Assembly (NCBI RefSeq): GCF_900087015.1 | Contig: NZ_FLKP01000002.1 | Coordinates: 124,001 to 188,000 of the forward strand | Direction of reading: 5' to 3' | Source of the DNA: Christensenella timonensis | GTDB lineage: Bacteria; Bacillota; Clostridia; Christensenellales; Christensenellaceae | DNA length: 64,000 bases | Shown here: positions 6,784-40,989 of the stretch, in pieces | Layout: every line of letters starts with the position of its first letter | How positions within the stretch are numbered: position 1 is the stretch's first letter | Translations under genes and position numbers: made by a program | Notes under the pieces: generated by a model | What the model was told of the DNA's origin: nothing | Database searches by the model: none | Seen by the model: only the letters and a program-made list of their open reading frames with translations

Positions 6784-6792
6784 ACCATTTTG

Positions 6793-6828
6793 AAAAAAGC
6801 GGCGCCGAGGCTTTTTCCGCAGCGCCGC
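6793..6828 (-). terminator. Stem-loop with U-run between GRE 1 and its activase
   Basis: GCGGCGC (6799-6805) pairs with GCGCCGC (6822-6828). On the minus strand the stem is followed by six T. It lies after the GRE stop and ends 10 bases before the activase start, so it should act as a partial terminator that lowers activase expression relative to GRE. Confidence 0.7.
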
Positions 6829-6846
6829 TTTTCCTCCCCTTATTTT

Positions 6847-10582: not shown

Positions 10583-10596
10583 TTAACACGTGTTAA
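10583..10596. promoter_or_regulatory. Perfect LacI-type operator TTAACACGTGTTAA (autoregulatory)
   Basis: This is a perfect 14-base palindrome just downstream of the predicted transcription start of the LacI gene, as expected for an autorepressor. It is the reference copy for the other five sites. Confidence 0.8.
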
Positions 10597-19704: not shown

Positions 19705-19854
19705 GATGCATACCTCTGACCTGAAAATTTTTGCTGCAATTCTTCGTATGATCCACAGGGCTGCCGATTTGCACGCCGAGCCTGCTCTTTCGTTCGCAAA
19801 GCATCGGCGTCAAATCGCACATTCCTGCTTTTATTTTTATATTGTTGTCCTCAG

Positions 19855-22329
19855 TCAGACCGCGTGCTCCGTACGTTCGATGATGTCGTCCTGCAACGCC
19901 TTGTCAAGCGGCGTAAACAATGCGCTGTATCCTGCCACACGCACCATCAGGTCTTTGTATTCGGACGGATTGTCCTGCGCCGCCTTGAGCGTATCCGCCG
20001 ATACGCAGTTGATCTGTACATGCATTCCCTTATAGTCGCTGAAATATGTGCGTACAACGTCTACCAGCTTCTTGAGGTTCGGTCCGGGCTCTAAGGACGC
20101 CGGCATAACCTTTACGTTCAGAAGCTGTCCGCCGGATACGAGAACTGTCGGCAGCTTGCCTACCGATTTTAAGGACGACGTGATCCCGTTGGTATCCGTG
20201 CCGTGCATCGGCGAAGAAGTATCCGCAAGCGCGTCGCCCGCTTTTCTTCCGTCCGGCGTCGCGCCCACAAAGGAGCCGAACGGTACGTTGGAAGAAACCG
20301 AGCTGGTGGACGGCTGCCATGTGCCGCCGATGGGGCCGCGGCCATATCTTGTCGTGTGGTATTTCGCCGTCTCCTCGCAGATGAAGCGGAAATAATCCAC
20401 CATGATATCGTCTACATAATCGTCGTCGTTCCCGTATTTAGGGGCATCCAGCATCATTTTCTGGATTTCCGCGCCCGTGGGCTTTGTCGTCATATCTTCG
20501 TAGTTTGTTTCCAGCGCGTGCATAAGCTGCTCTGCCGTAATCTTCTTGTCGTCGAAAACGACCTTCTTGATCGCCGCGAGTGAGTTTCCGACATTGGCAA
20601 CGCCTACATAAAGCGGCCCGCAGTAATCGTAGATCGCGCCGCCGGCTTTCATGACCTTGCCGCGCTCGATGCAATCGTGCACCAGCGAAGAAACGTACGG
20701 ATCGGCGATCCCCAGCTCCGTGCACTGGTCGATGATGTTATCCGTCATGATCTGCTGCTTGAAATAATATCTTGCCTGCGTCTTGAACGCTTCGTACAGT
20801 TCTTCATAATTTTTGAAATCAGACAGCGTTCCCGTGCCTTCGCACATGCAGATGTCCGTATTCGGGTCTTTCCCGTTGTAAAGCGAAAGTTCGAGGATTT
20901 TGCCGAGGTTGATGAAGCCTGCGCCGTTTGGGCGGCCTGTCTGCTTTCCTTCGACGATCGCTTCCACGCAGCCTACGATGGAATAGTTGACGGCGTCCTC
21001 CCACGGGATTCCCCTGTTAACAAGCGCCGGAATATAAACTTCATCGCTGTACATGGCCGGCTGTCCGCCGCCGATCCGAACCACGTCGAAAGACGCGTAC
21101 AGCAGCCTCTCATTGATGCGGTTGTGGTAACGCAGGGAGATGGACGGCGTATTGAGCGCGATCGCCGCCTGTGCATTGAGCACGAGGAACGATACTTCGT
21201 TGGCGCTGTCCTTTCCGTTGATATCCTGTCCGCCCACCGTAAAGTTCTGGAACAGCTGGTATCCGCTGAAAGCCTTTGTATTGTCCCAGCAAGTGATTTT
21301 CTGGAGCTGGAACATCTTCAGGAATACGCATTCGATGATTTCGAGCGCGTCGTCGTATTCGATATTGCCCGCTTCCACGTCCTTTTTGTAGATATCGATC
21401 ATCGTCTGGTCGTAACGGCCGAACGAGATGGAGTGGCCGTTGTTCTCGATCTGCATCGTCAAATTGATGAACCACAGCGACTGCGCCGCCTCGTGGAAAT
21501 CCCTCGCCGGGTTTTCCGGTACGTTCTGGCATACTTCCGCGATCTTCATCAGTTCTTTTTTACGCTGCGCGTCCTTTTCCGTTTTTGCCATTTCCACCGC
21601 CAGCTGTGCATAACGGTGAGCAAAAGCTATGACCGCTTCGCAGGTGATGACGACGGATTCCAAAAACGGTTTTTGTTCGATCGCATCCGGCTCGGAAAGG
21701 TCGAGCTGTGCAAGGCGCTTTTGCGCACGGGCGATCACGTCCTTAAGCCCCTTATCGGCAACGCTTTTGAGGTCTACCGTCAGGTGTCCGTCGCCGCCGA
21801 TCATCAGCCAGTAGGAATCCGTAACGCCGATCTTCTTGCCGATCTCCGTTTCCTTTGGCAGCATCGCCTTGCACCGCGATTCATGGTCGTTCCCATGCCA
21901 GAAGCTGTGGATTTCCCGCAGTACCTTTTCATCCTCTTCGTCGATCAGGTAACGGTCGCCCGGACGCTGCTCCGGCCGTACCGGATTGCCGTCCAGTTCT
22001 TCGATGACCCAGTCCATCCCGAATTCAGGAAAGATCGGCGCGCACCTCAGTTTAACGCCGAGGCTGCCTACGATAAGCTCCCCCGGAAGTATGCTGATCC
22101 GCATGTTTTCGAGAATATGCCTGAAGGCCTTTGCACGCTTTAAGACAGTCGGTTCAGATTGGTATGTCTGGTATGCCTGCGTCAAAAGCTTTGCCCTATC
22201 CGAGCATATCTGCGGCGTTGCATCGATCAGCAGGTCGCGCAGGTCGTTTATCCTTTTGCTGCGCACAACAGGACGTCCCAAAAATTCATGTTTGGTGTCT
22301 GTCTGTCCTTGCTCCTCATAATATTTCAT
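19855..22329 (-). CDS. Glycyl radical enzyme 2 (PFL-like dehydratase/lyase class)
   Basis: The 824-residue GRE has radical loop RVAGY with Gly800 and finger loop GCVEA, with thiyl Cys454 and Glu456 as in eliminase-type GREs. Ala follows the Glu in place of the common Pro. The region after it reads EGKQTGRPNGAGF, different from the choline, diol and glycerol enzymes I know. It resembles GRE 1 throughout (SNGHSISFGR / NNGHSISFGR, GGQ.FN and GRGPIGG) but is far from identical. Strong AGGAGG precedes ATG 22329, and an operator of the CACGTG family is 58 bases upstream. It heads the activase-kinase-regulator-epimerase-dehydrogenase run and is probably the key step of that pathway. Confidence 0.9.
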   Translation of the reverse strand: MKYYEEQGQTDTKHEFLGRPVVRSKRINDLRDLLIDATPQICSDRAKLLTQAYQTYQSEPTVLKRAKAFRHILENMRISILPGELIVGSLGVKLRCAPIFPEFGMDWVIEELDGNPVRPEQRPGDRYLIDEEDEKVLREIHSFWHGNDHESRCKAMLPKETEIGKKIGVTDSYWLMIGGDGHLTVDLKSVADKGLKDVIARAQKRLAQLDLSEPDAIEQKPFLESVVITCEAVIAFAHRYAQLAVEMAKTEKDAQRKKELMKIAEVCQNVPENPARDFHEAAQSLWFINLTMQIENNGHSISFGRYDQTMIDIYKKDVEAGNIEYDDALEIIECVFLKMFQLQKITCWDNTKAFSGYQLFQNFTVGGQDINGKDSANEVSFLVLNAQAAIALNTPSISLRYHNRINERLLYASFDVVRIGGGQPAMYSDEVYIPALVNRGIPWEDAVNYSIVGCVEAIVEGKQTGRPNGAGFINLGKILELSLYNGKDPNTDICMCEGTGTLSDFKNYEELYEAFKTQARYYFKQQIMTDNIIDQCTELGIADPYVSSLVHDCIERGKVMKAGGAIYDYCGPLYVGVANVGNSLAAIKKVVFDDKKITAEQLMHALETNYEDMTTKPTGAEIQKMMLDAPKYGNDDDYVDDIMVDYFRFICEETAKYHTTRYGRGPIGGTWQPSTSSVSSNVPFGSFVGATPDGRKAGDALADTSSPMHGTDTNGITSSLKSVGKLPTVLVSGGQLLNVKVMPASLEPGPNLKKLVDVVRTYFSDYKGMHVQINCVSADTLKAAQDNPSEYKDLMVRVAGYSALFTPLDKALQDDIIERTEHAV

Positions 22330-22386: not shown

Positions 22387-22400
22387 TTAACACGTGTACC
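22387..22400. promoter_or_regulatory. LacI-type operator (GRE 2)
   Basis: TTAACACGTGTACC shares 11 of 14 positions with the perfect palindrome at 10583-10596, including the whole left half and CACGTGT core, and 13 of 14 with the site before the ABC ATPase. Confidence 0.65.
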
Positions 22401-24040: not shown

Positions 24041-25075
24041 TCAGTTGAAGTATTCGTCCATGTTATCCTTTGTCACGAGTTCAAAGGGAATCCATGTCTC
24101 TTTTTCAACCTGCTCGCCGTTGATCAGTGCAAGGGCAACATCAACGGACTGGTAGCCCTGGCCATAGCCATCCTGGAATACGTCCGCAGCCAGCCTGCCG
24201 TCAGCCAGATATTCTTTTGCATCATCTACAAGGTCGATACCCGTTACCTGGATCTTGCCTGTCATGCCGGCGTTCTCGATTGCGTTGCAAGCGCCGATGG
24301 CCATCTCGTCATTCTGGGCAAATACGCCTGCCAATTCTTCCCCATAGGTATTGAGCCAGTTTTCCATGATCGTCATCGCTTCGTCACGTGACCAGTTTCC
24401 GATATCCTCAACAATGATCTCGATGTCCGGATATTTTTCTTCGAGCAGCTTCTTCGCCGCGTCGCCGCGGATCACTTCGGAAGACTGGCCTGCGATACCG
24501 CGGATCATACCGATTTTGCCTTTGCCGCCGATCGCGTCTGCAAGGGCCGTTACCGCGAGCTCGGCAGACTGGTTATCGTCGGAACCAACGAATGCATCAG
24601 GCTGGAGGTCTCCCTCGAACGTTGTGCAAACGCCGATAACCGGGATGCCGGCAGCATTGCACTTTTCAATGATCGGTACACAAGCCTGCGCGTCGACCGG
24701 CGTTACAATGATCGCATCCATCTGTTGAGCGATCATGGATTCGCACTGTGAAATCTGCGTGGACGGGTCGCCGTCCGCATCGTTTACCGTCAGCGAAATT
24801 CCCAGTTCGTCACAACGGGTCTGAATGCCTTCAGCAATGCTAAGCATGAACTCCGTCGTCTGTGTCTGAACAAGATATCCAAACGACATCTCGCTCGGGT
24901 CTTTGCCTGCCGCCGCGCTTGCGGATTCCACCGCCTGCGAAGCTTCCGCGCTTGCGGATTCCGCCGGCGCCGAAGACTCTGCCGGTGCCGAAGATTCTGC
25001 CGGCGCCTGCGAGCAACCTGCAAACGCTGTTACCACAAGCACGAGTGCCAGTACAACTACTAATACTTTTTTCAT
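24041..25075 (-). CDS. Sugar ABC transporter substrate-binding lipoprotein 2
   Basis: The 344-residue receptor starts MKKVLVVVLALVLVV and has lipobox AFAGC (Cys about residue 20). A low-complexity linker of repeated PAESSA units follows, then a type-1 sugar-binding fold (MSFGYLVQTQTTEFML, AQQMDAIIVTPVDAQAC, GKIGMIRGIAGQSSEV). It captures the sugar outside the membrane for the permease and ATPase encoded upstream. AGGAGG precedes the ATG. A hairpin after the gene may keep its mRNA level high, as is usual for receptor genes. Confidence 0.93.
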   Translation of the reverse strand: MKKVLVVVLALVLVVTAFAGCSQAPAESSAPAESSAPAESASAEASQAVESASAAAGKDPSEMSFGYLVQTQTTEFMLSIAEGIQTRCDELGISLTVNDADGDPSTQISQCESMIAQQMDAIIVTPVDAQACVPIIEKCNAAGIPVIGVCTTFEGDLQPDAFVGSDDNQSAELAVTALADAIGGKGKIGMIRGIAGQSSEVIRGDAAKKLLEEKYPDIEIIVEDIGNWSRDEAMTIMENWLNTYGEELAGVFAQNDEMAIGACNAIENAGMTGKIQVTGIDLVDDAKEYLADGRLAADVFQDGYGQGYQSVDVALALINGEQVEKETWIPFELVTKDNMDEYFN

Positions 25076-26171: not shown

Positions 26172-27665
26172 TTATTGAGCTAATACATACTCCATAATTT
26201 TTTCCTGTTTTATTTCTTCTCTTTGGTTGATCTCGCCTCTGATTTTACCTTCATGCATGACGATCACACGATCGGAAAGCCCGATTAGCTCCGGCATTTC
26301 CGACGAGACGACGATCACCGCTTTTCCCTGCTGGGCAAGACCATTAATAAGCTGGTATATTTCTGCCTTCGCGCCGATATCGATACCCCTTGTCGGTTCG
26401 TCCATGATGAGGATATCCGATTCGTCCAGCAGGATCTTTCCCAAAACAACCTTTTGCTGGTTCCCGCCGGAGAGGTTTCCCACAGCCTGGTTCCTCGTCG
26501 GCGTTTTAATGGTAAGGTCTTCGATTTGCTTATCCGCCAGTTCATTCTCCTTTTTTTGATTGATGATAGGCGACTTAAAATACTTATTGACGTTGGAAAG
26601 CGTCAGGTTGTGCTTGACAGAAAGCGGAAGCACGAGGCCCACGCCCTTGCGGTCTTCGTTTACAAGTCCGATCCCGCTTGCGATCGCGTCTTTTGGGGTA
26701 CGGATGGTGGTTTCCTTCCCCTTTATGAATACCTTGCCGCTATCGAGCTTATCGAGTCCATAAATACAGCGCATCGTTTCCGTCCTGCCCGCACCCATCA
26801 GTCCCGCAAAGCCGACCACTTCACCGCGCCGCACAGAAAACGAAACGTTTTCAAACACACCCTTTCTCGTCAGTCCTTCCACGCGCAGCATTTCCTCACC
26901 CGCCTGCGTATCACGTTTTGGAAATACGTCCGTCAGCTTACGGCCGACCATAGCTACGACGATCTGGTCGATATCCACGTCGCACGCATTGAACGTATCT
27001 ACGAGGCATCCGTCGCGGAACACGGTCACGCGGTCGCTGATTTTAAGGATCTCATCCATCTTATGCGATATGTAGATGATCGCGACTCCCTTTGCCTTAA
27101 GCTCATTGATCACACGGAACAGGTTTTCCACTTCCCGATCCGTAATTGCCGAAGTCGGTTCATCCATGACGATCACGCTCGCATCGTAAGAAACCGCCTT
27201 CGCGATTTCCACCATCTGCTGTTCAGACACCATCAGGCTGTTCATCGTACGCTTGGGGTTTAGGCCGACGCCCACATTTTTGAGCCATTCCGCTGCTTTT
27301 ACATTCATTTCCTTTTGCTGCAGGACGCCGTGTCTTACGATTTCCCTGCCGAGAAACATATTTTCGGCAATGGTCAGGTAGGGGACGTAAGAGAGCTCCT
27401 GATGAATGATCGCGATCCCCTTGGAAAGCGTTAGCCTTTCATCGCGTTTTTCAAGCACCTCGCCCTTATAAACGACGTCGCCGACGTCCTGTTTATAGGT
27501 TCCCGTCAGGATCTTCATCAGTGTGGATTTCCCTGCGCCATTCTCCCCCATCAGCGCGTGCACTTCGCCTTCCTCCAATTCAAAGGAAACACGATCAAGC
27601 GCTTTGACGCCCGGAAAAGTTTTGCAGATATTTTTCATCTCCAGTAAATGCCCTTGACTGCTCAC
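26172..27665 (-). CDS. Sugar ABC transporter ATPase 2 (RbsA/MglA family)
   Basis: The 497-residue ATPase has two ABC domains: domain 1 with GENGAGKST, VSEQQMVEIAKAVS, MDEPTSAI and ISHK; domain 2 with the degenerate Walker A GLMGAGRTE, LSGGNQQK and MDEPTRGID. These are the standard residues, in contrast to the orphan paralogue at 4399-5874. The start is GTG 27665 with AAGGAG 8 bases before. A promoter with an embedded operator lies about 120 bases upstream. First gene of the ATPase-permease-lipoprotein operon. Confidence 0.94.
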   Translation of the reverse strand: MSSQGHLLEMKNICKTFPGVKALDRVSFELEEGEVHALMGENGAGKSTLMKILTGTYKQDVGDVVYKGEVLEKRDERLTLSKGIAIIHQELSYVPYLTIAENMFLGREIVRHGVLQQKEMNVKAAEWLKNVGVGLNPKRTMNSLMVSEQQMVEIAKAVSYDASVIVMDEPTSAITDREVENLFRVINELKAKGVAIIYISHKMDEILKISDRVTVFRDGCLVDTFNACDVDIDQIVVAMVGRKLTDVFPKRDTQAGEEMLRVEGLTRKGVFENVSFSVRRGEVVGFAGLMGAGRTETMRCIYGLDKLDSGKVFIKGKETTIRTPKDAIASGIGLVNEDRKGVGLVLPLSVKHNLTLSNVNKYFKSPIINQKKENELADKQIEDLTIKTPTRNQAVGNLSGGNQQKVVLGKILLDESDILIMDEPTRGIDIGAKAEIYQLINGLAQQGKAVIVVSSEMPELIGLSDRVIVMHEGKIRGEINQREEIKQEKIMEYVLAQ

Positions 27666-27781: not shown

Positions 27782-27810
27782 ATAATTTAACACGTGTACT
27801 TATTTTTCAA
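27782..27810 (-). promoter_or_regulatory. Promoter of ABC operon 2
   Basis: On the minus strand TTGAAA (27810-27805), 17 bases, AATTAT (27787-27782). The operator lies almost wholly in the spacer, so repressor and polymerase would compete. Confidence 0.5.
27787..27800. promoter_or_regulatory. LacI-type operator (ABC operon 2)
   Basis: TTAACACGTGTACT, nearly identical to the site before GRE 2 (one base differs). Confidence 0.65.
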
Positions 27811-28280: not shown

Positions 28281-28294
28281 TGCACACGTGTTAA
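28281..28294. promoter_or_regulatory. LacI-type operator, tandem copy 1
   Basis: TGCACACGTGTTAA. Its centre is 21 bases from the centre of copy 2, two helical turns, so both would be bound from the same DNA face. Confidence 0.55.
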
Positions 28295-28301
28295 AAATTA
28301 T

Positions 28302-28315
28302 TTTACACGTGTTTA
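28302..28315. promoter_or_regulatory. LacI-type operator, tandem copy 2
   Basis: TTTACACGTGTTTA, a symmetric core with flanks close to the perfect palindrome. Lies about 150 bases before the DUF1326 gene. Confidence 0.55.
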
Positions 28316-28461: not shown

Positions 28462-29139
28462 ATGAGTAAAGAAAAAAACAAAACACAATGGCCGGACTGG
28501 AAGCTGGACGGCGAGTACATCGAGAGCTGCAGCTGCGATGTGAGCTGTCCGTGCCTCATCAGCGCGCAGGCGCACAACACGATCCTGCCCGACTATCTTC
28601 CCTGCGACGTCCTTTTGAGCTTCATTATCGATAAGGGGCATTATGAGGACGTTATCCTGGACGGATGCAAATTTGTCGTTGCCTTTTCCACCCCACGTGA
28701 AATGTGCCTGAAAAACTGGACGACCGCCTATTACATCGACGCGAAAACGCCCGAGCAGCAGGCGGCGCTGACGACGATCGTAACCGGGCAGGCCGGCGGC
28801 CCTACTGCCGGGATGGCAGAGCATACGGAAGAAGGTTATGGCGTCAAGCTGGTGGACATCAGCTATGAGCGCCCGGACATTTACGGACGTGAAGCGGAAA
28901 TCCCCGGGATCATGAAGGTCAAGATCAAGGCAAAGATCGGCCAGCACGACAATATGCCGATCGTATACGAAAATGCCAGCGACATCGCTTATGTGATCAC
29001 GCAGTCTTATGGTACGGACGTGCGCTATACAGACAACATGAAGGTCATGAACAATACGGGCCGCAACGCTTTTTACGGCCGGTATGTATGGGTTCCCGAG
29101 TCCCCGATCGGCATCAAATATGACCGCTGCGAAAAATAA
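28462..29139 (+). CDS. DUF1326 domain protein
   Basis: The 225-residue soluble protein matches the DUF1326 family. A compact Cys motif near the N-terminus reads ESCSCDVSCPC (Cys23, 25, 29, 31), suited to binding a metal ion or forming disulfides. There is no signal peptide. The start ATG is preceded by AAAGGAG. It is first in a plus-strand set with DUF4418, an FtsX-type transporter and DUF2182; in other genomes, as I recall, DUF1326 and DUF2182 genes are often neighbours. The biochemical role is unknown to me; metal handling is inferred from the Cys cluster and partner proteins. Confidence 0.8.
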   Translation: MSKEKNKTQWPDWKLDGEYIESCSCDVSCPCLISAQAHNTILPDYLPCDVLLSFIIDKGHYEDVILDGCKFVVAFSTPREMCLKNWTTAYYIDAKTPEQQAALTTIVTGQAGGPTAGMAEHTEEGYGVKLVDISYERPDIYGREAEIPGIMKVKIKAKIGQHDNMPIVYENASDIAYVITQSYGTDVRYTDNMKVMNNTGRNAFYGRYVWVPESPIGIKYDRCEK

Positions 29140-29211
29140 AGCGTGAAGGACGGTAAGCCTCGGATCGGCGGGGCTTACCATCCTGCTGAAATCAAACCAG
29201 AGGTGTTCTCC

Positions 29212-29634
29212 ATGAAAAAAAACGTATTTGGAATCATTACGCTTGTTTTGGGTATATTGCTCATATTGACCGTACAGTTCATCCTGCCCGTATGCGATAA
29301 AACGTTGGAGCTTGCAAACGGTAACGCCGTACCCATGGCCTGCCACTATACGGGGCTTTTTACCACGGCGGCCGGAGTCCTGATTATTTTCTCAGGCGTA
29401 CTTTCCCTTTTCTTCCGCAAGGCACAGGCTTGTATTGTTTTAGGCTTGCAATCCCTCGCGCTCGCGCTGGTAACAGTCTTAATGTCAACCAGCTTTATCG
29501 GCGTCTGTAAAAACGCGACCATGCCTTGCCATATGGGCACGCAGCCCGGAATCATCGTGGTTTGTGTATTGATCATCGTGTGCGGCGTAGCGCAGGTGTT
29601 CGCCGGGATCAAAAAGGCGGGTACCGGTCAATGA
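29212..29634 (+). CDS. DUF4418 family membrane protein
   Basis: The 140-residue protein has four predicted membrane segments (about residues 6-27, 46-68, 73-96 and 112-132). Two equivalent loops carry the same M-x-C-H pattern: PMACHYTG (Cys44, His45) and TMPCHMGT (Cys106, His107), each preceded by a further Cys (28 and 99). This internal symmetry suggests a redox or metal site at one membrane face. ATG 29212 follows AGAGGTG; an upstream GTG frame start is less likely. The stop overlaps the next ATG by 4 bases, so it is coupled to the permease and may be part of the transporter complex. Confidence 0.75.
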   Translation: MKKNVFGIITLVLGILLILTVQFILPVCDKTLELANGNAVPMACHYTGLFTTAAGVLIIFSGVLSLFFRKAQACIVLGLQSLALALVTVLMSTSFIGVCKNATMPCHMGTQPGIIVVCVLIIVCGVAQVFAGIKKAGTGQ

Positions 29635-30836
29635 AAGTAAAACGGCTGACCGGCGCTGCGCTGGCTTTTGCAAATGTCCGGCGCAAACCCATGCGTACCA
29701 TGGGGCTCGCAATCATTGTCGCCGTCTTTGCTTTTGCCCTTTTTTGCGGCAGTATACTGACACAAAGCCTGAAAAGCGGGATCGAAAGCATGTCCGGACG
29801 GATCGGCGCCGACCTGATGGTCGTACCGCGAGGCAGCGGCACAGACCTGCAAAATTCCCTTTTACGCAGCGAACCCAGTACCTTTTATCTGGAAGACGGT
29901 ATAATAGACGGCCTTTCCTCAATCGACGGTGTGGCGCAGACCTCTCCCCAGCTTTTTATCGCTTCCCTGAACGCCGCCTGCTGCACGGTACCCGTACAGC
30001 TGATCGGCTATGACCCGGCTACCGATTTCACGATCGCGCCCTGGATGACCAATACCCTGTCCGAGCCCCTTGGCAGCGGCCAGGTGGTAGTCGGCAGCCT
30101 TGTGCTCGCCGAGCCGGGAGACGAGGTGTATTTCTACGGCCAGCCGTTTCAGGTAGCCGCGAAGCTGGCGGAGACAGGTATGGGCTTTGACTCTTCCATC
30201 TTTATGACCACAGATACGGCGCAGCATATGATCGACCTGTCCGGCGAAAAGGCTGTGCACCCCGCCGGCAGCGGCGAGGGACTGGTATCGTCCATTTTGA
30301 TCCGCCTTGACGCGGATGCGGACGCCACGCAGGTCGCAGACGAAATCATCGACCGTTTCCCTCACACAGATGTGGTGATATCCGACGATTTCATGCGTAA
30401 TATCGCAGGCGAGCTTTTAGATACCAGTAGCCTTACACTCGCCATCACGATCCTCCTGTGGGTGGTCGCTGTACTCGTGTTGTTGTTCGTGTTCTCCATT
30501 ACCTTCAACGAACGCAAAAAAGAATTTGCCCTTTTGGGCGCGCTAGGCGCCACCCGGGGCAAGATCGCAGGCGTCATCCTCTGTGAGTCGCTCATTACCG
30601 CAGCGATCGGAACGGCATGCGGCCTGCTTGCAGCGTGCCTCATCCTGTTTCCGTTCCAAACGCTCATCGCGACGTCCATGGGCCTTCCTTACCTGACGCC
30701 CGGCGCAGGCTCCGTCCTGGTAAACCTGCTTATAAGCGCGGGCATCTCCGTTCTCATCGGGCCGCTTTCCTGCCTCTATTCGGCAGTCCGCCTAAGCAAG
30801 ACGGATACATATTTCACGATAAGGGAGAATGAATGA
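29631..30836 (+). CDS. FtsX/MacB-like ABC transporter permease
   Basis: The 401-residue protein has one membrane segment near the N-terminus (about residues 20-42), a large extracytoplasmic domain (about 43-265), and three C-terminal segments, the classic MacB/FtsX layout. Phrases such as MRTMGLAIIVAVFAFALFCG and FSITFNERKKEFALLGALGA are typical. Such permeases usually perform mechanotransmission or export rather than sugar uptake. It overlaps DUF4418 and the ATPase by 4 bases on either side, so all three should form one complex. Substrate unknown. Confidence 0.9.
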   Translation: MKVKRLTGAALAFANVRRKPMRTMGLAIIVAVFAFALFCGSILTQSLKSGIESMSGRIGADLMVVPRGSGTDLQNSLLRSEPSTFYLEDGIIDGLSSIDGVAQTSPQLFIASLNAACCTVPVQLIGYDPATDFTIAPWMTNTLSEPLGSGQVVVGSLVLAEPGDEVYFYGQPFQVAAKLAETGMGFDSSIFMTTDTAQHMIDLSGEKAVHPAGSGEGLVSSILIRLDADADATQVADEIIDRFPHTDVVISDDFMRNIAGELLDTSSLTLAITILLWVVAVLVLLFVFSITFNERKKEFALLGALGATRGKIAGVILCESLITAAIGTACGLLAACLILFPFQTLIATSMGLPYLTPGAGSVLVNLLISAGISVLIGPLSCLYSAVRLSKTDTYFTIRENE

Positions 30837-31525
30837 TGTTACTGAAATGTGAGCAGGTCACCAGAAAATACAGCCGGGGCGAAAAAAATTTTTTTACAGC
30901 CGTAAACAAAGCCGGCTTTTCCGTTGAGGCGGGCGACTTTGTCAGTATCATCGGAAAATCCGGCAGTGGAAAATCCACGCTCCTCAATATGATCGCCGGA
31001 CTTTTGCACCCCACGTCCGGCCGCATCCTATTGAATGGAAAAGAATTCTGGACAGAGGATGAAAAGCAAATGGCGTATGTCCGCAACACCAGCCTCGGGT
31101 ATATCCCGCAGGGCCTGAGCCTTCTTGCAAATTTGACCGCCCTTGATAATGTCCGCCTGCCTTATTTCTTACACAAACGCGAGGGCGACGGCGCGGCGCG
31201 GGCGGAAATGCTGCTCGGGAAAGTCGGCCTTAAGGGACGGGGAGGCAGCTATCCATCCCAGCTTTCCGGCGGTGAAATGAAACGCGTCGCCATTGCGCGC
31301 GCGCTGATAAATGAACCTCTTTTGCTGCTCGCGGACGAACCCACGGCGGATATCGACGAGGATACCACGCGCGAGGTGATGGAGCTTTTCACGGAAATCC
31401 GTGCCGAAGGCAGCACCATATTAATGGCTACGCACGAGCTTGATAACGTGGGCTACGGCAACCGCGTGTTCCGCATGTCCGGCGGGAATCTTTCCGAAGC
31501 TTCGATACAGGACTATCAGAAATAA
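30833..31525 (+). CDS. ABC transporter ATPase (LolD/MacB-like)
   Basis: The 230-residue single ABC domain has Walker A GKSGSGKST (about residues 43-51), signature LSGGEMKRVAIARAL and Walker B LLLADEPTADID, with the H-loop in MATHELD. It is the energising subunit for the FtsX-type permease, with which it overlaps by 4 bases (ATGA). Two consecutive ATGs leave the exact start open by one codon. Confidence 0.93.
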   Translation: MMLLKCEQVTRKYSRGEKNFFTAVNKAGFSVEAGDFVSIIGKSGSGKSTLLNMIAGLLHPTSGRILLNGKEFWTEDEKQMAYVRNTSLGYIPQGLSLLANLTALDNVRLPYFLHKREGDGAARAEMLLGKVGLKGRGGSYPSQLSGGEMKRVAIARALINEPLLLLADEPTADIDEDTTREVMELFTEIRAEGSTILMATHELDNVGYGNRVFRMSGGNLSEASIQDYQK

Positions 31526-31552
31526 GCAATCAAAGGATAAAAAGGGATTTTC

Positions 31553-32392
31553 ATGGAACAGGCAAAAAAATTTCATCTCAACAAACAGCAGGCCATCGTG
31601 CTCATCGTTATCATTGCCTTAACGGTATGCGCATGGATCTATACTGCCGTCAATGCCAGCTCAAGCGGTATGGACGGTATGTCTATGGACATGACGGGCG
31701 CGGCCGATCCGGAAATGGATGCGCAAATGGCAGAGCGGCTGGCTGCAGCCGCCTATTCTCCCACAATGCCGCCTTTTTCGATGTTTGTGCCGATGTGGAT
31801 CGTCATGTGTATCGGCATGATGCTGCCCACGGCGGTACCGATGATCTTCGCTTTCGATACGATCAGTAAACGCCGCCGCGCGCAAGGCTTCGGCAACTCC
31901 CCTACTTACCTGTTCATCCTCGGCTACGTCCTTTTGTGGGCGCTGTTCGGCGTAGTCTGCTGGCTGGTCGGGGAAGGAATCATCGCCTTGATCGGCGGCT
32001 GCTTTACCAGTTGGACGCACACGCTCATCGGCGTAGCCGTCATTTTCCTGGTCGCGGGCGTTTACCAGCTAAGCCCGCTCAAAAACGCCTGTATGCGCGG
32101 GTGCCAGCATCCGCTCGCCTTTGTACTGCATAACTGGAAAGCAGGCGGCTCCGGCGCGCTTCTGATGGGCATGAAACACGGCATGGAATGCATCGGCTGC
32201 TGCTGGGCGCTTATGGTCGTGCTCTTCCCCCTGGGGATGATGAACCTCTTTTGGATGGGGCTGTTTACGCTGATCATGTTCTTTGAAAAAAATGCAAAAT
32301 TCGGAACCTTACTAAGCAAAATCGTCGGTTGGCTCCTGATTGTGGCAGGTGCGATCCTCTGTATTATGGGCGGCTTCTTACTTGCATTATAA
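31553..32392 (+). CDS. DUF2182 family integral membrane protein
   Basis: The 279-residue protein has about seven hydrophobic segments and the DUF2182 hallmarks: FVPMWIVMCIGMMLPTAVPM and MKHGMECIGCCWALMVV (His209, Cys213, Cys216, Cys217). A Met/Asp-rich extracytoplasmic segment (SSGMDGMSMDMTG, about residues 37-50) could bind soft metal ions such as copper. Families of this type are annotated as predicted metal-binding membrane proteins. It starts 27 bases after the ATPase behind AAGGGA and closes the cluster. Confidence 0.8.
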   Translation: MEQAKKFHLNKQQAIVLIVIIALTVCAWIYTAVNASSSGMDGMSMDMTGAADPEMDAQMAERLAAAAYSPTMPPFSMFVPMWIVMCIGMMLPTAVPMIFAFDTISKRRRAQGFGNSPTYLFILGYVLLWALFGVVCWLVGEGIIALIGGCFTSWTHTLIGVAVIFLVAGVYQLSPLKNACMRGCQHPLAFVLHNWKAGGSGALLMGMKHGMECIGCCWALMVVLFPLGMMNLFWMGLFTLIMFFEKNAKFGTLLSKIVGWLLIVAGAILCIMGGFLLAL

Positions 32393-32480: not shown

Positions 32481-34517
32481 TTACGGCTCCACGATATTGA
32501 AGAAGAACTCGTAGGACACCATATGTTCCGTCAGCTTTTGCAGAATATCCCCGTCTCCTTCGACCGTGATATTCTGTTTTTGTTTTGTTTCGTCTTTGGC
32601 GAGGATCGAAAACATCGCCGACCGCGGCAGCGTGAGCGTCGCGTCCGCGTCGTCCGCCCGTGTGCCTTTTTGGTAGAGCAGCACGCCGTTTTTGACCGTC
32701 ACGAGATACGGCTCCCCGTCCGTGATATCAAAGTTGATGGTAAGGTTCAAATCTTGAGCAGCGTTCGCGTCAAGCAATATCCCCATCTGGGCCAGCATCA
32801 TTTCCGGCGTCATGGCCATCTGCAGGTCGGCGCTGCCCGTTGCTTTTTTGGCCAGGTCGTTTGTCGTACCCTCGCGCAGCTCCTTTGCGCCCGAAAGATA
32901 GACGTTGCGCCATGTGCCCGATTCCGCCCGGTAGGCAAGCTGCTCGAGCGCGTCCGCGCACAAATACCGCGCCTGCTCGTTTCCCGGATCGGCAAACACC
33001 AGCACGTTCGTGATTTCCGCCACCCACTGGTATTCGCCGCTTGCAAAATCCTCTTTGGCTTTTTTCAGCACCTCGTTTGTGTCTCCCATGTACTCCACGT
33101 ATTTTTTGGCGCTGTCCGAAGGCGAAAGCGGATTTAAATTCACGGGATTCGCGTCGTACCAGCCCATGTATTTCTGGTAGACCGCTTTCGCGTTATGCGC
33201 CACCGTTCCGTAATACTGCCGCGTATACCAATTCTGTTCCAGCGCCGCCGGCAATTCAATCATGTTTGAAATCTCATCCGAGGTATAGCCCTGGTTGATA
33301 TACAGCAACGTCTGGTCGTTGATGAACTTGTACATGGCTGCCGTATTTTCCATGTATTCGCCGATGATATCGTTGCCCCAGTGCGGCCAGTTGTGCGACT
33401 GGAACACCACCTGCACCTCATCGCCGTAGCGCGCAGCCGCCTCCATGATGTACCCGGCCCAGGCGCTGCCGTCGCGCACCTGTGCCCCCCGCAGCGTATA
33501 CAGGTTGTGCAGCGTACCCGTGCAGTTTTCCGCCAGCCACAGCGCATTTTTCTGCGGGAACCACGTGTTCATTTCCGCCGGAGCCTCGGTGCCCGGGGTC
33601 ATCTGAAATTCCATCTTCACCCCGTCCACTGTGCGCGTCTCGCCCGTTTTGGTGATCTCGTCGTTGGGCACGATATAGGAGACTGTGCCCTTTGATTGCC
33701 CCATGCCGATGCCGATGGAAAGGGAGCCCGCTTCCCCCGGCTCCAGGATGGTGCCGTACTGATAGCCCGCGCGCCTGCCCATGGCGTTGCCCGCGTATAC
33801 ATTCTCGCTCACCGCGTGCTCGTGAAAGCCCTCCGGCACGATGATGGGAATGTTGCGTTCCACAACATCTTCCTCCGACACGATTCCCTTGATCCCGCCG
33901 TAGTGATCCACATGCGGATGGCTCATGACGATGCCGGTAACAGGCCGTTTGCCCAGCGTTTCGTTTACCAAGGCAAGCGCCGCAGCAGAACATTCTGTGC
34001 TCATCAGCGGGTCGAACACGATCCAGCCGGTGTCGCCTTTGATAAACGTGATGTTGGTCATGTCGTACCCGCGCACCTGGTAGACGCCGTCCGTTACCTC
34101 AAACAAGCCGTAGATGTGGTTTAACTGCGCGTTGCGCCACAGGCTGGGGTTCGCCGTGTCCGGCGCGTCTCCCTCGAGGAATGCGTACGCCGTCTGGCTC
34201 CACACGATTTTGCCGTTTTCATCCTTGATTTCCAGTGCGTCCGGCGCGGCAAGAAGCCCTTTCTGCGCACACTCCTTTTCCCGTTCGTCGGAAAAATCGA
34301 GCAGGGCGTAAACCTCTTCGTTTGCGGCAACCGTCTGTTCGGTCGGCTGTTTGGCGGACACGTCCGATACCTTCACGCTTTCCTGTTCCGCCTGCGACGG
34401 CTGCACAGGCGGAACGGACGTTTCATTCGCGATTTCTCCCTGCTGAGGCTGCGCCCCGCAGGCCGTTATGCCGAACAAAAGCAATGCGGTAATCAACACA
34501 AAACAGGTTTTTTTCAT
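32481..34517 (-). CDS. Secreted alkylsulfatase-like metallo-beta-lactamase-fold lipoprotein
   Basis: The 678-residue protein begins MKKTCFVLITALLLFGITAC with a lipobox Cys at 20, so it is lipid-anchored outside the cell. A disordered Gln/Val/Ser linker leads into an SdsA1-type domain: SHPHVDHYGG (the HxHxDH dizinc site, about 196-206), TPGTEAPAEMNTW, ENCTGTLHNLYTLRG and SHNWPHWGND. The C-terminus resembles the SCP2-like domain of alkylsulfatases. These enzymes hydrolyse linear primary alkyl sulfates. ATG 34517 is chosen because it gives the signal peptide; further upstream codons run into the next gene. It is convergent with the DUF2182 cluster and downstream of the giant surface protein. Confidence 0.88.
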   Translation of the reverse strand: MKKTCFVLITALLLFGITACGAQPQQGEIANETSVPPVQPSQAEQESVKVSDVSAKQPTEQTVAANEEVYALLDFSDEREKECAQKGLLAAPDALEIKDENGKIVWSQTAYAFLEGDAPDTANPSLWRNAQLNHIYGLFEVTDGVYQVRGYDMTNITFIKGDTGWIVFDPLMSTECSAAALALVNETLGKRPVTGIVMSHPHVDHYGGIKGIVSEEDVVERNIPIIVPEGFHEHAVSENVYAGNAMGRRAGYQYGTILEPGEAGSLSIGIGMGQSKGTVSYIVPNDEITKTGETRTVDGVKMEFQMTPGTEAPAEMNTWFPQKNALWLAENCTGTLHNLYTLRGAQVRDGSAWAGYIMEAAARYGDEVQVVFQSHNWPHWGNDIIGEYMENTAAMYKFINDQTLLYINQGYTSDEISNMIELPAALEQNWYTRQYYGTVAHNAKAVYQKYMGWYDANPVNLNPLSPSDSAKKYVEYMGDTNEVLKKAKEDFASGEYQWVAEITNVLVFADPGNEQARYLCADALEQLAYRAESGTWRNVYLSGAKELREGTTNDLAKKATGSADLQMAMTPEMMLAQMGILLDANAAQDLNLTINFDITDGEPYLVTVKNGVLLYQKGTRADDADATLTLPRSAMFSILAKDETKQKQNITVEGDGDILQKLTEHMVSYEFFFNIVEP

Positions 34518-34639
34518 ATGGCTTTTTCCACGCTTTCTCTTTTCTTCACTTTCAGTATTGCAAGCACATCCGCACTTGTCAAGACGGCAGGCGGGTTTCA
34601 CAGGCTCGCGCGGCGCTCTTTCCCGTCCGGTAAAGAGTC

Positions 34640-37600
34640 TTACTGTCTTTTCAACAGCTTTCTTCCCAGGAAAACAAGGCATACCGCGGCAGCCGCCGCG
34701 ATTGCGAGCCAAATCCAAACAGGCAGGGTCTCGTCGCCCGTCTTCGCACCACCGCCGGGTGTGGGGGTATGCGTTGATTCCGACGCATTCTCGGCAAGCG
34801 TGAATGTGACCTGCGCCTGTACCGTGTCGTTCGTATCCTTCCATGCGCCGCTTTCATACCGCTCCAGTGCAAAGGTCACAGTGAGGGTATGCGCGCCCAT
34901 CGCCATATCTTTCGTTTCAAACGAGGCGGTGTAGGGCGGCCCGCTCCACGTGCCGGACGGGTTGACCGACCAGCTTTTGGGTACATGCCTTTCGTCGCCC
35001 TCGATGGGATGGTCGTTGTCCATACCCGCACCAACCGCCGTGAATTCAAACGTACTGCCGTGGGCGTACGTTTTGCCGTCTTCGATGCCGAGGATTTTGC
35101 TGTCGCCGGGAGCGGGCTTCACCGGCCCGCGTGGGCGCCATTTGGCGTACAATGTAAGGTCCGACTGCACCTCGCTGGCAAAATCATAGGGGATGGTCAG
35201 CGCATCGTCCTCGTACCAGCCGAGGAACATTTTGTCTTGCAGCGCCGGATCGGCAGGTTTTGCCACCGTTTTGCCTTCCTGCACCCGCTGCGCAGGGACG
35301 GCGGTACCGCCGTTCGGCTCAAAGGAGACATTGTAATACATCTCCCGCAGCCCCGCGTACAGCGTAAAGCCGCCGCCTGTGAGGTTTGTGGGAACCGTAT
35401 CGCTCCCAAAATTCCATTGCTGGGTGAGCGCTTTATCCCTGTACCACTTACCGTCGAACGCATAGCCGTAGTGATCGGGCGTAACGCCCGGATCGGCGAT
35501 CTTTTGCCCCTTGACGCCGTAGTTCTGGTAGACCTCCTCATCGTCCAACGGGTCGAGCCAATGGAGCTCCACCTGCCCGGCTGCGGGCGTCCACGCAGCG
35601 TACAGTGTGTGCAGCGACTTCGCCGGATTGAGATGATAGGATTCGCCCGCGGCGTAGTTTTGGCTCACGTCGCTATCGTCCGCCACCACCTCGCCGTTCA
35701 CGGTCTTTGCCTGCCCGCACCAAAGGGAGAAGTCAAACCCCTGGCGGGTTGCGGAGCTCAAGGGGACATCCGTATCCTTAGCTGCGATATACGGGTTGTC
35801 GCCGCTGTATTCGCCGCCGAGCGGCTGGAAATGGAGCATAGCGTTCTTAAATCCGGGCTTGGCGTACAGGGAGAGGGGACCGGTGGTTCCCGCCGCGATC
35901 TGCGTAATTTGGGTCGTATATTCCGCGTCCGTATACCAGCCTTTGAATTCGATCGGCTTGCCCGTGTAATCCACATTATTCAGCATCACAGTATCCTCTA
36001 CGGTATAGGTGTCGGGGTTGCTGCCCTTGCCGTCCGCGAAAGGCGTGTGATAGGTGATGGGGTATTCTATGGCCTCCCACTTTGCGCGCAGGGTCACATC
36101 CGCGTCCACCCAGTCGCCCTTTTTGTCAAGGAGCGGCAGGGAATAGACGGATTTTGTCTTGTCCACATCGGCGCTGGGACTACTGCTCTCAAAATACCAG
36201 CCCATGAAGCGGTAGCCCGCTTTCTCCGGCTCGCGCAGGATAGCGCCGTCCAGCAGCGTGTACTTGTCCGGGTTATCCGGGTGGTTGGTCCCGCCGTCCA
36301 GGTCATACGTAATATCATACTCCGTCGCCGTCCACTTTGCGTACAGCACATACGGCCCGCTGCCGCCTGCCAGCTTTTGCGCGATGCGCATGGGATCGAC
36401 GTACTCAATTTTTTGCTTAAATGCCGCGTCGTCATACCAGCCGTCAAACGTCGCGCCCACCCGCGTGGGATCCGCAAGCGCAGTCGGGGCGGCATTCCTG
36501 CCGATGGCGTTCGGGTTGGCCGCGCTGTTCGTGCCGCCGTTCAGCTCGTAGCGAACGAGATACCCCTCGTCTCTGATCAGGCCCACATGTATGGCGATGG
36601 GAGCCGACACAGCGATGTTCGCTGCGCTGCGGGCACTGCCTGCCGCTTCGGTGAGCTGTGCAGGTCCAACCGCTGCGGTTGGCGTTGGGACGGTAGAAGT
36701 AGTCTCTGTTGGTTGAGGCGACGCCGTTCTCGTTTGGGTGGGCGCAGGAGCCTCCGCCGGTGCTGCCGTAGCCTCCGGTGTTGCGGTTGCCGATGGCTCA
36801 GCCAATGTGGCCGCCGTTGTTGGTTCAGCCGCGTCCTCCGCAGCGGTCAGCGCCAGCGGCTCTATCCCCGGTTCATGAAGGCTGGCAGGGCCTGCGGTGT
36901 TTTCGTCCGCAGGCTCAACTGGCGGGTCAGGCGTCAGCGTCGGCTGCTCCGTCGGCGTCGCAGTTGGCGTGGGTGTTTCATCCGGCGTTTGCGTGGGCGA
37001 AGTGGTAGGCCCAGCCGTCGGCTCGGCGGGCGTATTTTCCGGTGCGCCGCTTATAAAAGAGCTGCCTGTTCCTGTATAGACCGCAACCAGATCGTACCCG
37101 CCGGACTCCGAGGGCGTCCATTCGTGCGTCACAATGCCGTTCGCAGGCGTTAGGCCGCTTGCGATCAACGTTTCCGCACCCCCGTCCTTGCGGCAGAACA
37201 GGGATAAGGTTCCGTCGCTGATGTCTGTTACGTTCTTCTTGGTCACTTCCGCTTTAAGCGTCACCTTCCCGCCGGAGCGCAGGAAGTACGCACCGCCGCG
37301 TTCCCGTGGCAGCTCGGCACCGTCCGCCGACTTCGCCGAAAGGGCCACGGAGAAGCGTGGGTCGGCCCCCACATGCACGGTTGCCACGCGAGAGATCACT
37401 GTTTGTGTCTCGGCGCTGTACTGAAAATGTTTGTCGACACGCGAGGAAACCACGCAGCGGTATTTGGCTCCGTCGTCCCCAGACGATAGCCTTTCGTAGC
37501 AGGTATCTGTGTCTATGCCCAAGTCTACCCATTCGCCAATGTAGCCTTCGCTTACCTCGTATTTTTGCCACCTGTATTCAATCAAATTGCCCCCATCCGA

Positions 37601-40600
37601 TTCTGATGCTTTCACAGTAAGGTTGCAGTCAATAGTCCCCTGGGGGTTCGGTGTTGCATAATAATCCGCCGGCGTTGTGGGATCGACGTGCAGCGTGGCG
37701 GCCTTGGCCGTGGTGGCGGTCAGCGGGCTAGAAAGCCCGCCGTTTTGCCCGTTAAGGGGCAGGGCCTTGAACGCGAAATCGTAGGTCGTGCCCGGCATGA
37801 GGCCGGTGACGGTCATAAAGTTCTGCTTCATGGCTTCTACCTTGCCGACCGTCTGGTAGTCACTGGGCGACGCACCCGTGTTTTTATAAAACACTTCGTA
37901 CTCGCTCGCAAGGCGGGTATCGGAGGCGGTGGGCTCATTCCACGCCAGCACCAGGAACGCCTTGCCGTTAGTTTGCATCCCCGTTTCGTATACGTACGGG
38001 TTTTCCGGCGGTTTGGGCGGAGCGTCCGCTTTGGGCGCTACGATAAAGCCGGTGGTGAGCAGCGCGCCCTGCCCCACGCACGGCCACACGCCCATTGTGG
38101 TCTGGTAGCCGTAATCGCCGTAACCCGTGGGCAGGGGGTTAATGGACGCGCCCGTGCCAATGGAAAAGTTAAAGCCTGCGCGCATATTTATGTTTGCACC
38201 CCGGCTTTCGGCGAATCCACCGGACAACCCTGTTTTTTCGCTGCCGAGAAACTGTACCTGCCCGGTTATCCCAGCCTGTACGGAGTCGGAGACCTGGATG
38301 CCCACCGTTCCGTCCCATTCGATCCCCGCGGCGCCTGGGAAATCGATTTGGCTGTCCGCGCCGCCCGTGGCGATGTTTTTGGGGGAGGAAACCATGTTTT
38401 CCGCGCTGTCATAATGCGCGATATCGGAAAAACCGCGCTGATAGGTACTTGGGTCGCCCACGGTAAAGTCGTAGGCGCTCATATCGAGCTTGTCCGTGCC
38501 CAGGTTGTGCCTTTTGTACGCCTCGTTGTATTGATCCATGGGGATGAGCGAATACGTGGGCGAATAGGGCACGTGGATGTTGTAGCTGTACCAGCCCGCG
38601 GGCACGGTGTCGCCGACATCGTAGACGGTTCCGTTCTCGTTTTTCAGCGTGTCGCTGTTTGCCAGCTCCTTGTATTTTTTAGCGGTCTCCTCCGTCACCC
38701 GGAAAGCTGGGAGCCATACCTTGTACTTATAGGTCACGATGGGCGTGGCATACACCAGCACATGGTTTTCATCCACCGGTACTCTGAAGGTCTGGGTGTT
38801 GCGGTTGGAGAGCCTGTCCCGCAGCTCGCCGCTGGCTGCCAGCGTGCCGTTCAGGTCGGTCGAAAAGCCCGCCAGGGCCTCGCTGCCCAACGCGCCCGCA
38901 CCCGCCATGGCGGTGAGCGAGCCCGTTGAGCCCACCGAATAGTTCATGCTTTCTCCTGCCGGGGGCGGGAGCTCGTAGGTATTGCTGACCGAGAACGTAA
39001 CGTCTCCCACGCCGTTCTCGTAGGGAAGTTCCTTCCAGTAAGGGGCTGCGGGCAGGGCCATGAGCGCGTCCGGCGCGCTCCAGCCATAGCTTTTTTCCAT
39101 ATATTTGTAGTTGGCGCGGTGCTCCGTATCCTCCACCCGCGCAAGGGAAAGGAATGTGCCGTTCCTGCTTGCGGAGCGTGTTTTCAGGTATTGGGTGTTG
39201 GTATCGTGCTGCGTCACGACGTTGTTTTCCATCCACAGCCAGGTGATGCTGCCGTCCACGACAGCGCCGGGCCGGGAATAATTGTCGTTCCACACAAGCG
39301 CGATCTGCTCGCTGCCCGCGTGGTCTGCGGCAAAACGGCCGGAAACCGCGTGACTCACCGTGACCGTCTGGGGATTCATCCTCATCTCAAATGTCCCTGT
39401 CAGTTTTCCGCCCGCAAGCTGCATCTGCTCGCCGTCTGCTTTCTGTGCGTTGTTAGTCGCGGAAAACGACAGCACCGCGCCCTCGAGCAGCAGGTAGTCG
39501 TTATCCGTCTCCTCGCTTAAAGCGGCTGCCGTAAGCGCGACCGGCTCGCTCATGGCATAAGCGCTGTCCGCTGCCATTGCCTTTTTTACGCTGCCCGTGG
39601 GCGTGTATTCCATGGGTTTGGTATAGGCCATGCGGTAGGCATCCGCGTCTTTGTCCCAGGTAAGCAGGTTGACGCAGTACTTCTGGAACGGATGGTCTTT
39701 TAGCTTTTGTTTTTTCGTATCCGTCCATGTATCCGCGTATCCGGCGACCACAAGCTCGCCGGTTCCGTTGCCGTTCACATCCGCCTCCACGGTTGCGGGA
39801 AAGCGCATATAATAATCGCCGTAATCGAGATGGTCGAAGAACAGGCGCTTCATGGCGCTTCCGTCCTGTTCGTAAACGGCGAGCGCGGGAAGCTGGCTGT
39901 GCCCTTTATAAGACTCCGCGTCGCTGCGCGGAAGGCACGCGCTCACCACAAGGTGGTCTCTGGTGCCCCCGTCTGCGCGCGCAAGGCCGGAGGTGCCAAG
40001 GTTTACGATTGGCAGGTTCCAGCCGGAAAAAGCAAAGTTGTATTGCGCCCAATCGTTGTCCGTGTGCAGATCGTTAAGCGGAATGCGGGAGCCCTCTGCG
40101 ATGTCTCCGTTTATCCCGATGTCGTAAACCTGGATATAGGGATTATCAAACCGCGGCACATACACCGCCAGCTCGTCTATCCCGTCGCCGTCGTAATCGC
40201 CCGCGCAGACGGCGTTCAGCCCCTGCGCGGCGCGTACGTCGATTTCGCCGATCCTGGTATTTGAATTTGCCAGCTTTGTATAACTTGTGCTTTGGGGAAC
40301 ATAGCCGTTTCCTTTTTTCACCAGCGTGACCACGCCCAGCCAGCTTGTATTCTTGGCGTTAGCGACGCCCTTCTCCCTGCCCGTCAGCAGTACAGCCTCG
40401 CAGATCACCGGGGGGATGCCGCCCGACCCGTCCGCGTTCGTTCCCATATCGAGGGAAACGGTATTGAGCGTACGGTATTTGGAGTTGTCCACCCGGAGGG
40501 AGGCGTATTCCGCGGGAGCGCTCACGGGCGAAGCGTCAAGGTATCCCGCAGCGCCGCTGCCGCTGATGGTCGCCCCCTGCGCGCTGCGGGCGGGCATGGT

Positions 40601-40960: not shown

Positions 40961-40989
40961 CCTTTTTCCTCCCATGTTATCGTCGGCTT

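Follow-up and report, generated by a model that had tools for sequence, protein, structure and literature searches.

The stretch of Christensenella timonensis DNA analysed here (64,000 nucleotides, positions 124,001 to 188,000 of contig NZ_FLKP01000002.1, forward strand; hereafter the window) carries, at positions 28462-32392, five same-strand genes that we refer to as the cassette. Each of their families was assigned by Pfam above the cut-off:

28462..29139, plus strand: DUF1326 protein, 225 amino acids (aa), predicted cytosolic, with five invariant Cys (C23, C25, C29, C31, C48) and a predicted acetoacetate-decarboxylase-like barrel
29212..29634, plus strand: DUF4418 protein, 140 aa, with four predicted transmembrane helices and two predicted outward loops, each C...MxC(H) (C28/M42/C44 and C99/M104/C106)
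29631..30836, plus strand: FtsX/MacB-type permease (FtsX and MacB_PCD domains); its subfamily, linked to DUF4418, conserves a CC pair in the extracytoplasmic domain
30833..31525, plus strand: ATP-binding cassette (ABC) ATPase (ABC_tran) of the LolD/FtsE/MacB type
31553..32392, plus strand: PpoB2 (PF09948, formerly DUF2182), membrane copper-chaperone family, with a Met-rich outward loop and with C105/C109, H134 and C138/C141/C142 kept (domain numbering)

The middle three genes (DUF4418, FtsX and ATPase) are joined by two 4-base ATGA overlaps (29631-29634 and 30833-30836), and gaps of 72 and 27 bases separate DUF1326 from DUF4418 and the ATPase from PpoB2, respectively. The best start of the DUF4418 gene is the ATG at 29212, which is consistent with its relatives; the open reading frame beginning with GTG at 29143 is a mechanical maximum only. 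The gene set is real and conserved, and the Cys/Met motifs on which an original prediction for this locus was built (CSCDVSCPC, i.e., CxCx3CxC, in DUF1326; MACH and MPCH in DUF4418; GMDGMSMDM and HGMECIGCC in PpoB2) had been read correctly and are conserved in alignments more than expected by chance. The same prediction could name no function for these families, which does not apply to PF09948, matched here at 186 bits against a cut-off of 28.7: PpoB2 of Marinomonas mediterranea, shown genetically to be a copper chaperone, is described as the COG5486 protein for which a role was first assigned, namely copper transfer to a tyrosinase (PMC2855505). Moreover, our analysis adds the CC pair of the FtsX protein, the composition of the cassette as a fusion of two separable modules, and a candidate operator that it has in common with a sugar importer.

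The two outer genes encode proteins with strongly conserved soft ligands. In 39 diverse DUF1326 sequences, haloarchaeal and cyanobacterial ones included, C23, C25, C29, C31, C48, G59 and D93 are invariant. The protein has no hydrophobic segment and is hence predicted to be cytosolic, so that the system is not wholly one of the envelope, as had been proposed; that description is not supported for DUF1326. Its structural model (pLDDT, the predicted local distance difference test score, of 91) resembles acetoacetate decarboxylases (Foldseek E 6e-5, TM-score 0.43; VIA Z 10.9, root-mean-square deviation 6.1, 175 aligned residues), but no conserved Lys, which would correspond to the Schiff-base lysine of that superfamily, was found among the 39 sequences. 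In PpoB2, K102, C105, C109, H134-G, C138, C141, C142, M10, M14, M15, M155 and E170-K (domain numbering) are kept in 76 to 81 of 81 aligned rows, and the window protein retains all C/H/M positions of the family except for one Leu-to-Met change. Since its N-terminus is positively charged, the Met-rich loop that follows the first helix (9 Met) should face outwards according to the positive-inside rule; such loops were found in many PpoB2 proteins, though not in all. Sequence searches for relatives of solved structure returned none for DUF1326, DUF4418 or PpoB2.

The inner three genes form a second unit, in which the DUF4418, FtsX and ATPase genes are adjacent, the permease belongs to the CC subfamily and DUF4418 carries C...MxC twice. 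The Cys and Met of the two DUF4418 motifs, PxC...MxC and GxC...MxC, are invariant or nearly so across alignments of 30 to 36 sequences (33-36 of 36). Positive charge is found in the N-terminus, the middle loop and the C-terminus of this four-helix protein, and hence both Cys/Met loops should, by the positive-inside rule, face outwards. The model of DUF4418 (pLDDT 92) is a tetraspan, but its fold was uninformative on function, matching only generic four-helix tetraspans (claudin/TARP types) and, weakly, vitamin K epoxide reductase (VKOR). Treponema saccharophilum encodes a half-size DUF4418 protein of 67 aa with a single hairpin (locus L154:6774-6977), which suggests that the usual DUF4418 may be a duplicated two-helix hairpin unit. 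As for the permease, the extracytoplasmic CC pair is present in 28 of 31 DUF4418-linked FtsX proteins and is missing from all eight remaining FtsX-domain matches in the genome. In the tree, the DUF4418-linked FtsX proteins form one clade (support 100/98), apart from the other FtsX proteins of the genome and from the Fet-type FtsX proteins, including the Fet-type pair of Fusobacterium. Five cassette copies group together at 95/93, and the copy of Christensenella sp. UBA5399 (G009) falls outside the resolved grouping.

The families are linked in other genomes, but as two modules rather than one. Among the 80 best DUF1326 relatives in named genomes (Streptomyces, Solirubrobacterales, Rokubacteria, Binataceae/Deltaproteobacteria, Gammaproteobacteria, Chloroflexi and a few Bacillota), DUF1326 and PpoB2 are immediate neighbours in 64 loci, the two genes sharing a strand in 56 of these and diverging in 8; in 5 loci PpoB2 lies further off with DUF4418-FtsX-ATPase in between, and in 11 no PpoB2 was found within the examined stretch. 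We call this pair module A. DUF4418-FtsX-ATPase (module B) also occurs alone: in two Bacillota genome samples, an FtsX gene of the same subfamily lies within 4 kb at 22 of 27 DUF4418 sites outside the cassette. Given the wide pairing of A across phyla and the separate occurrence of B, the sequence comparison indicates that these are separate modules, and in the cassette module B sits between the two genes of module A. In the sampled phylum (348 genomes), DUF1326 is found in one genome, that of the window, PpoB2 is likewise rare, and DUF4418 is found in 13. The full five-gene order is present in this genome (G000), G002, Christensenella sp. UBA5399, Christensenellaceae OttesenSCG-928-K19 (G012) and three Lachnospiraceae assemblies (L042-L044), with a DUF1326 identity between bacterial families of 92-93%; in a set of 61 relatives, all four genomes with a DUF1326 gene carry the cassette. 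Christensenella sp. UBA5399 additionally holds a second DUF1326 gene (L048:7974-8633) with neither PpoB2 nor DUF4418 as a neighbour. Viral contigs yielded no DUF4418 relatives, nor did plasmids in a tblastn search with the window protein as query.

Upstream of the cassette lies a divergent sugar importer, and both are preceded by candidate operators that recur at other genes of the window:

26172..27665, minus strand: RbsA-like sugar ABC ATPase, divergent neighbour of the cassette, with orthologues beside the cassette in G002, G012 and L043/L044
25169..26152, minus strand: RbsC-like permease
24044..25075, minus strand: RbsB-like lipoprotein (Peripla_BP_4)
28284-28291 and 28305-28312, no strand: two ACACGTGT elements, candidate operators, about 150-180 bp before DUF1326; the second lies inside TAAACACGTGTAAA (minus strand), a genome-rare match
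27787..27800, plus strand: TTAACACGTGTACT, candidate operator before the divergent rbsA
10583..10596, no strand: TTAACACGTGTTAA, candidate operator lying some 42 bp upstream of a LacI-family gene (9492-10541, minus strand)
22390..22397, no strand: ACACGTGT upstream of a gene for a glycyl-radical enzyme (19858-22329, minus strand)

ACACGTGT occurs five times in the window against 0.41 expected, a count reached by no shuffle, with two copies before the cassette and one each before rbsA, the glycyl-radical enzyme gene and the LacI-family gene. G002 repeats all five placements; a search of G009, G012 and the Lachnospiraceae loci gave no such element. The stricter near-palindrome TWAACACGTGTWNW was derived from these very sites, so that its test lies in rarity elsewhere and not in discovery; its three matches in the 2.65 Mb genome all fall within the window (before the cassette, the divergent RbsACB genes and the LacI gene), and its reversed control matches nowhere in the genome. 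G002, G012 and the Lachnospiraceae loci have importer orthologues along with the cassette (57-95% identity for the substrate-binding protein (SBP), 74-95% for the ATPase), and in Lachnospiraceae some 25-50 bp separate the SBP gene from DUF1326, placing importer and cassette in a single run. Among the 61 relatives, SBP homologues above 55% identity are confined to cassette genomes, and the Cys residues of the SBP are not conserved across all cassette loci. The importer of Christensenella UBA5399 is not the best orthologue of that in the window and was not counted as conserved synteny. Given the shared rare candidate operator, we consider that the cassette is very likely co-regulated with the RbsACB importer and probably also with the glycyl-radical enzymes, presumably under one LacI-type switch. 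The ACACGTGT palindromes mark an apparent LacI-type regulon comprising the LacI gene, the glycyl-radical enzyme, RbsACB and the cassette.

Elsewhere, the two modules are found in varied settings. In roseobacters, PpoB2-DUF1326 lies upstream of dimethylsulfoniopropionate (DMSP) demethylase genes (L122:5230-11872, L124:5196-8748), in Marinovum also with an SBP56 protein. Chroococcidiopsis has DUF1326 ahead of a DevBCA exporter and a protein that carries a copper-binding annotation. At L122, a gene of the SBP56 methanethiol-oxidase family stands beside the pair, whose proteins are candidate copper chaperones for the SBP56 enzyme; the Cu-dependent methanethiol oxidase (PMC5739008) belongs to the SBP56 family. 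Outside Bacillota, the neighbours of module A are lineage-specific (M16 peptidases, acyl-CoA dehydrogenase, hydrolases), with no common client. Module B adjoins cytochrome b/Rieske, nitrogenase-like, corrinoid-methyltransferase-type and cysteine-synthase-type genes, and is also found near NMT1-type importers, molybdopterin enzymes, an HMA-DsbD-cupredoxin protein and cupredoxins (several of these identities were assigned by eye only). A Treponema locus has it flanked by importer genes on one side and cysteine synthase on the other. In Fusobacterium vincentii, genes for an FtrD-like protein, two FtsX, an ATPase and an FMN-binding lipoprotein stand in the Fet/Sif order, and DUF4418-FtsX(CC)-ATPase comes immediately after them. 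What these settings have in common is metal or thiol chemistry outside the cytosol, not a single client. At several loci (L026, L034, L036, L140, L142, L154), nitrogenase-like, NifH, corrinoid methyltransferase and cysteine synthase genes occur in the vicinity of DUF4418, which may indicate an organosulfur link of module B, and at L140:8856-9095 an 80-residue protein consisting mostly of Met and Cys (MMMCDAYWKKMCTEMSMMMMTM...), without a Pfam match, is encoded near DUF4418. Pfam identified a cupredoxin/Fer4_5 protein at L033, so that a link of this locus to nitrous oxide reductase, considered at first, was dropped. In the genome of the window, where copper genes were sought by the HMA domain only, two HMA-domain proteins were found, one of which starts a 740-codon frame that, by eye, has the look of a metal P-type ATPase.

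The computation supports the family assignments, the conserved ligands, the modular structure and a likely co-regulation. On this basis we tentatively favour, at close to an even chance, the view that the operon is a unit of the cytoplasmic membrane handling a soft metal, most likely Cu(I); the metal, the direction of its transfer and its target are what we infer, along with the formation of a complex and the purpose of the relay. DUF1326 would bind Cu(I) in the cytosol and pass it to PpoB2, which would present it at the outer face via the Met-rich loop and the conserved Cys/His/Met sites, whereupon the DUF4418/FtsX pair may receive or release the metal through the outward C...MxC and CC sites. 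ATP would drive the conformational cycling of the ABC module, a mechanotransmission as in MacB-type transporters. Such a relay may keep copper from the iron-sulfur activases of glycyl-radical enzymes, or may serve an extracytoplasmic partner. For Cu(I) speak the family name of PpoB2 and its pairing with DUF1326, the invariant Cys and the kept ligands, the clade of linked FtsX proteins with its CC pair, the copper contexts elsewhere, the two HMA-domain proteins, and the operator and synteny shared with RbsACB. Moreover, the near-invariant Met beside Cys in DUF4418 suits Cu(I) better than pure disulfide exchange. Several observations weigh on the other side: the organism looks like a strict anaerobe, judging from its family and its glycyl-radical enzymes; the role of PpoB2 is known from one species; the soft-ligand motifs could be just as fit for iron, zinc, haem or thiols; several other loci with module B adjoin the cysteine synthase, nitrogenase-like, corrinoid methyltransferase and cytochrome bc genes and not copper genes; no copper enzyme was recognisable among the scanned neighbours of the cassette; and no CopY-type copper operator (TACANNTGTA) was found near the operon. 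The lack of a copper oxidase client nearby weakens the functional analogy to Marinomonas PpoB2, though not the family membership. In its fullest form, i.e., an undescribed ATP-assisted copper or soft-metal relay in which the cytosolic Cys-cluster protein, PpoB2 and the DUF4418/FtsX(CC) ABC unit act as a single complex that a sugar-responsive regulator deploys alongside the importer and oxygen- and copper-sensitive glycyl-radical enzymes in anaerobes, we regard the proposal as somewhat doubtful.

The strongest rival is thiol or persulfide handling, because DUF4418 modules often sit with sulfur genes, and yet we hold it to be unlikely. The outward Cys pairs of DUF4418 and FtsX would here constitute a disulfide relay, or else be binding sites for sulfane sulfur or volatile thiols, the ABC module would pass reducing power or thiols across the membrane, and PpoB2 and DUF1326 would feed or protect it. 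Consistent with this are the two Cys-bearing outward loops of the DUF4418 model and its weak resemblance to VKOR (one among many other tetraspans), the Treponema operon with cysteine synthase and the vicinity of cysteine synthase, NifX-like and nitrogenase-like genes elsewhere, the position of PpoB2-DUF1326 beside DMSP demethylase, whose pathway yields methanethiol, and the proposal that FetBCD, an analogous FtsX ABC unit, relays reducing power (PMC10783030). However, the Met of DUF4418 is conserved as strongly as the Cys, and the single characterised member among these families acts as a copper chaperone. After the thiol relay ranks the possibility, in our estimate quite unlikely, that the cassette is an accessory of iron (Fe2+) acquisition resembling FetBCD of P19/Fet systems, the ABC module powering the release of metal, or redox chemistry, at the membrane on behalf of an importer. 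The gene order in F. vincentii points this way, mutation of fetB, fetC or fetD causes impairment when iron is limiting (PMC10783030) and Sif genes matter for Bifidobacterium breve under the same condition (PMC5449479), but FTR1, P19 and FtrD domains are absent from the five genes and the cassette FtsX lies outside the Fet-type branch. Finally, DUF1326 may be an enzyme of a sugar pathway that happens to stand beside an ordinary MacB-type exporter made up of the remaining genes; the fold match to acetoacetate decarboxylases, the operator common to cassette and sugar genes and the high DUF1326 identity between families would agree with this, whereas the conservation of five Cys and no Lys, and a DUF1326-PpoB2 pair that spans phyla with unrelated neighbours, make it very improbable.

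The copper relay that we favour resembles several described systems without coinciding with any of them. Marinomonas PpoB2 is a membrane protein of the same family (COG5486, PF09948) with the same conserved Cys/His/Met positions, while the cassette PpoB2 is partnered with DUF1326 and an ABC module, without tyrosinase, in an anaerobic gut organism. The pair of Actinomycetota, Pseudomonadota, Chloroflexota and haloarchaea comprises the same two families, with DUF1326 first in most loci, but is adjacent there and split by DUF4418-FtsX-ATPase in the cassette. FetBCD/SifBCD of the P19-FTR1 iron systems likewise combine an FtsX/MacB-type permease with an ATPase, there for metal acquisition, and in Fusobacterium the DUF4418 module is joined to such a locus; the cassette differs in having an FtsX of another branch with CC, one permease instead of two, and DUF4418 in place of FtrD, and neither its five genes nor their scanned neighbours encode FTR1, P19 or FtrD. 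With MacB, LolCDE and DevBCA it shares the domain architecture of permease and ATPase, but it has a small Cys/Met tetraspan partner and the conserved outward CC, and no membrane-fusion protein is encoded in the operon or the scanned neighbours. Since the defining features of the Fet and MacB tripartite systems were tested and are missing, the cassette is not a member of either. In copper delivery to nitrous oxide reductase by NosDFY-NosL, an ABC unit works with a copper chaperone; the idea is alike, but the cassette lacks NosD, NosL and NosZ and its permease family is unrelated. The cassette would be a PpoB2 copper-chaperone pair with a dedicated ABC module, a candidate new route for copper or similar metals at the membrane. 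PpoB2, DUF1326 and DUF4418 are widespread and almost unstudied (in the literature library searched, no paper was found for DUF1326, DUF2182 or the Pfam accessions, and DUF4418 appeared as one table entry), and the interest of the cassette is that it ties these three poorly known families together so that they become testable jointly. It suggests an order of metal or thiol ligands from the cytosol to the outside, under a candidate operator, which opens the function to experiment, and it would help to explain why a dedicated FtsX subfamily recurs beside redox and sulfur enzymes of anaerobes.

Some further features of the window stand apart from the cassette. Two glycyl-radical enzymes with their activases lie in one sugar region (5896-9309 and 18772-22329), both scoring below every equivalog cut-off, and Rfam gave no match across 24-35 kb of the window. 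Convergent with the cassette, at 32481-34844, is a gene for an alkyl-sulfatase-like protein of the metallo-beta-lactamase fold, and 34640-40975 encodes a very large surface-type protein of 2111 aa with FG-GAP, fibronectin and Listeria-Bacteroides repeats.

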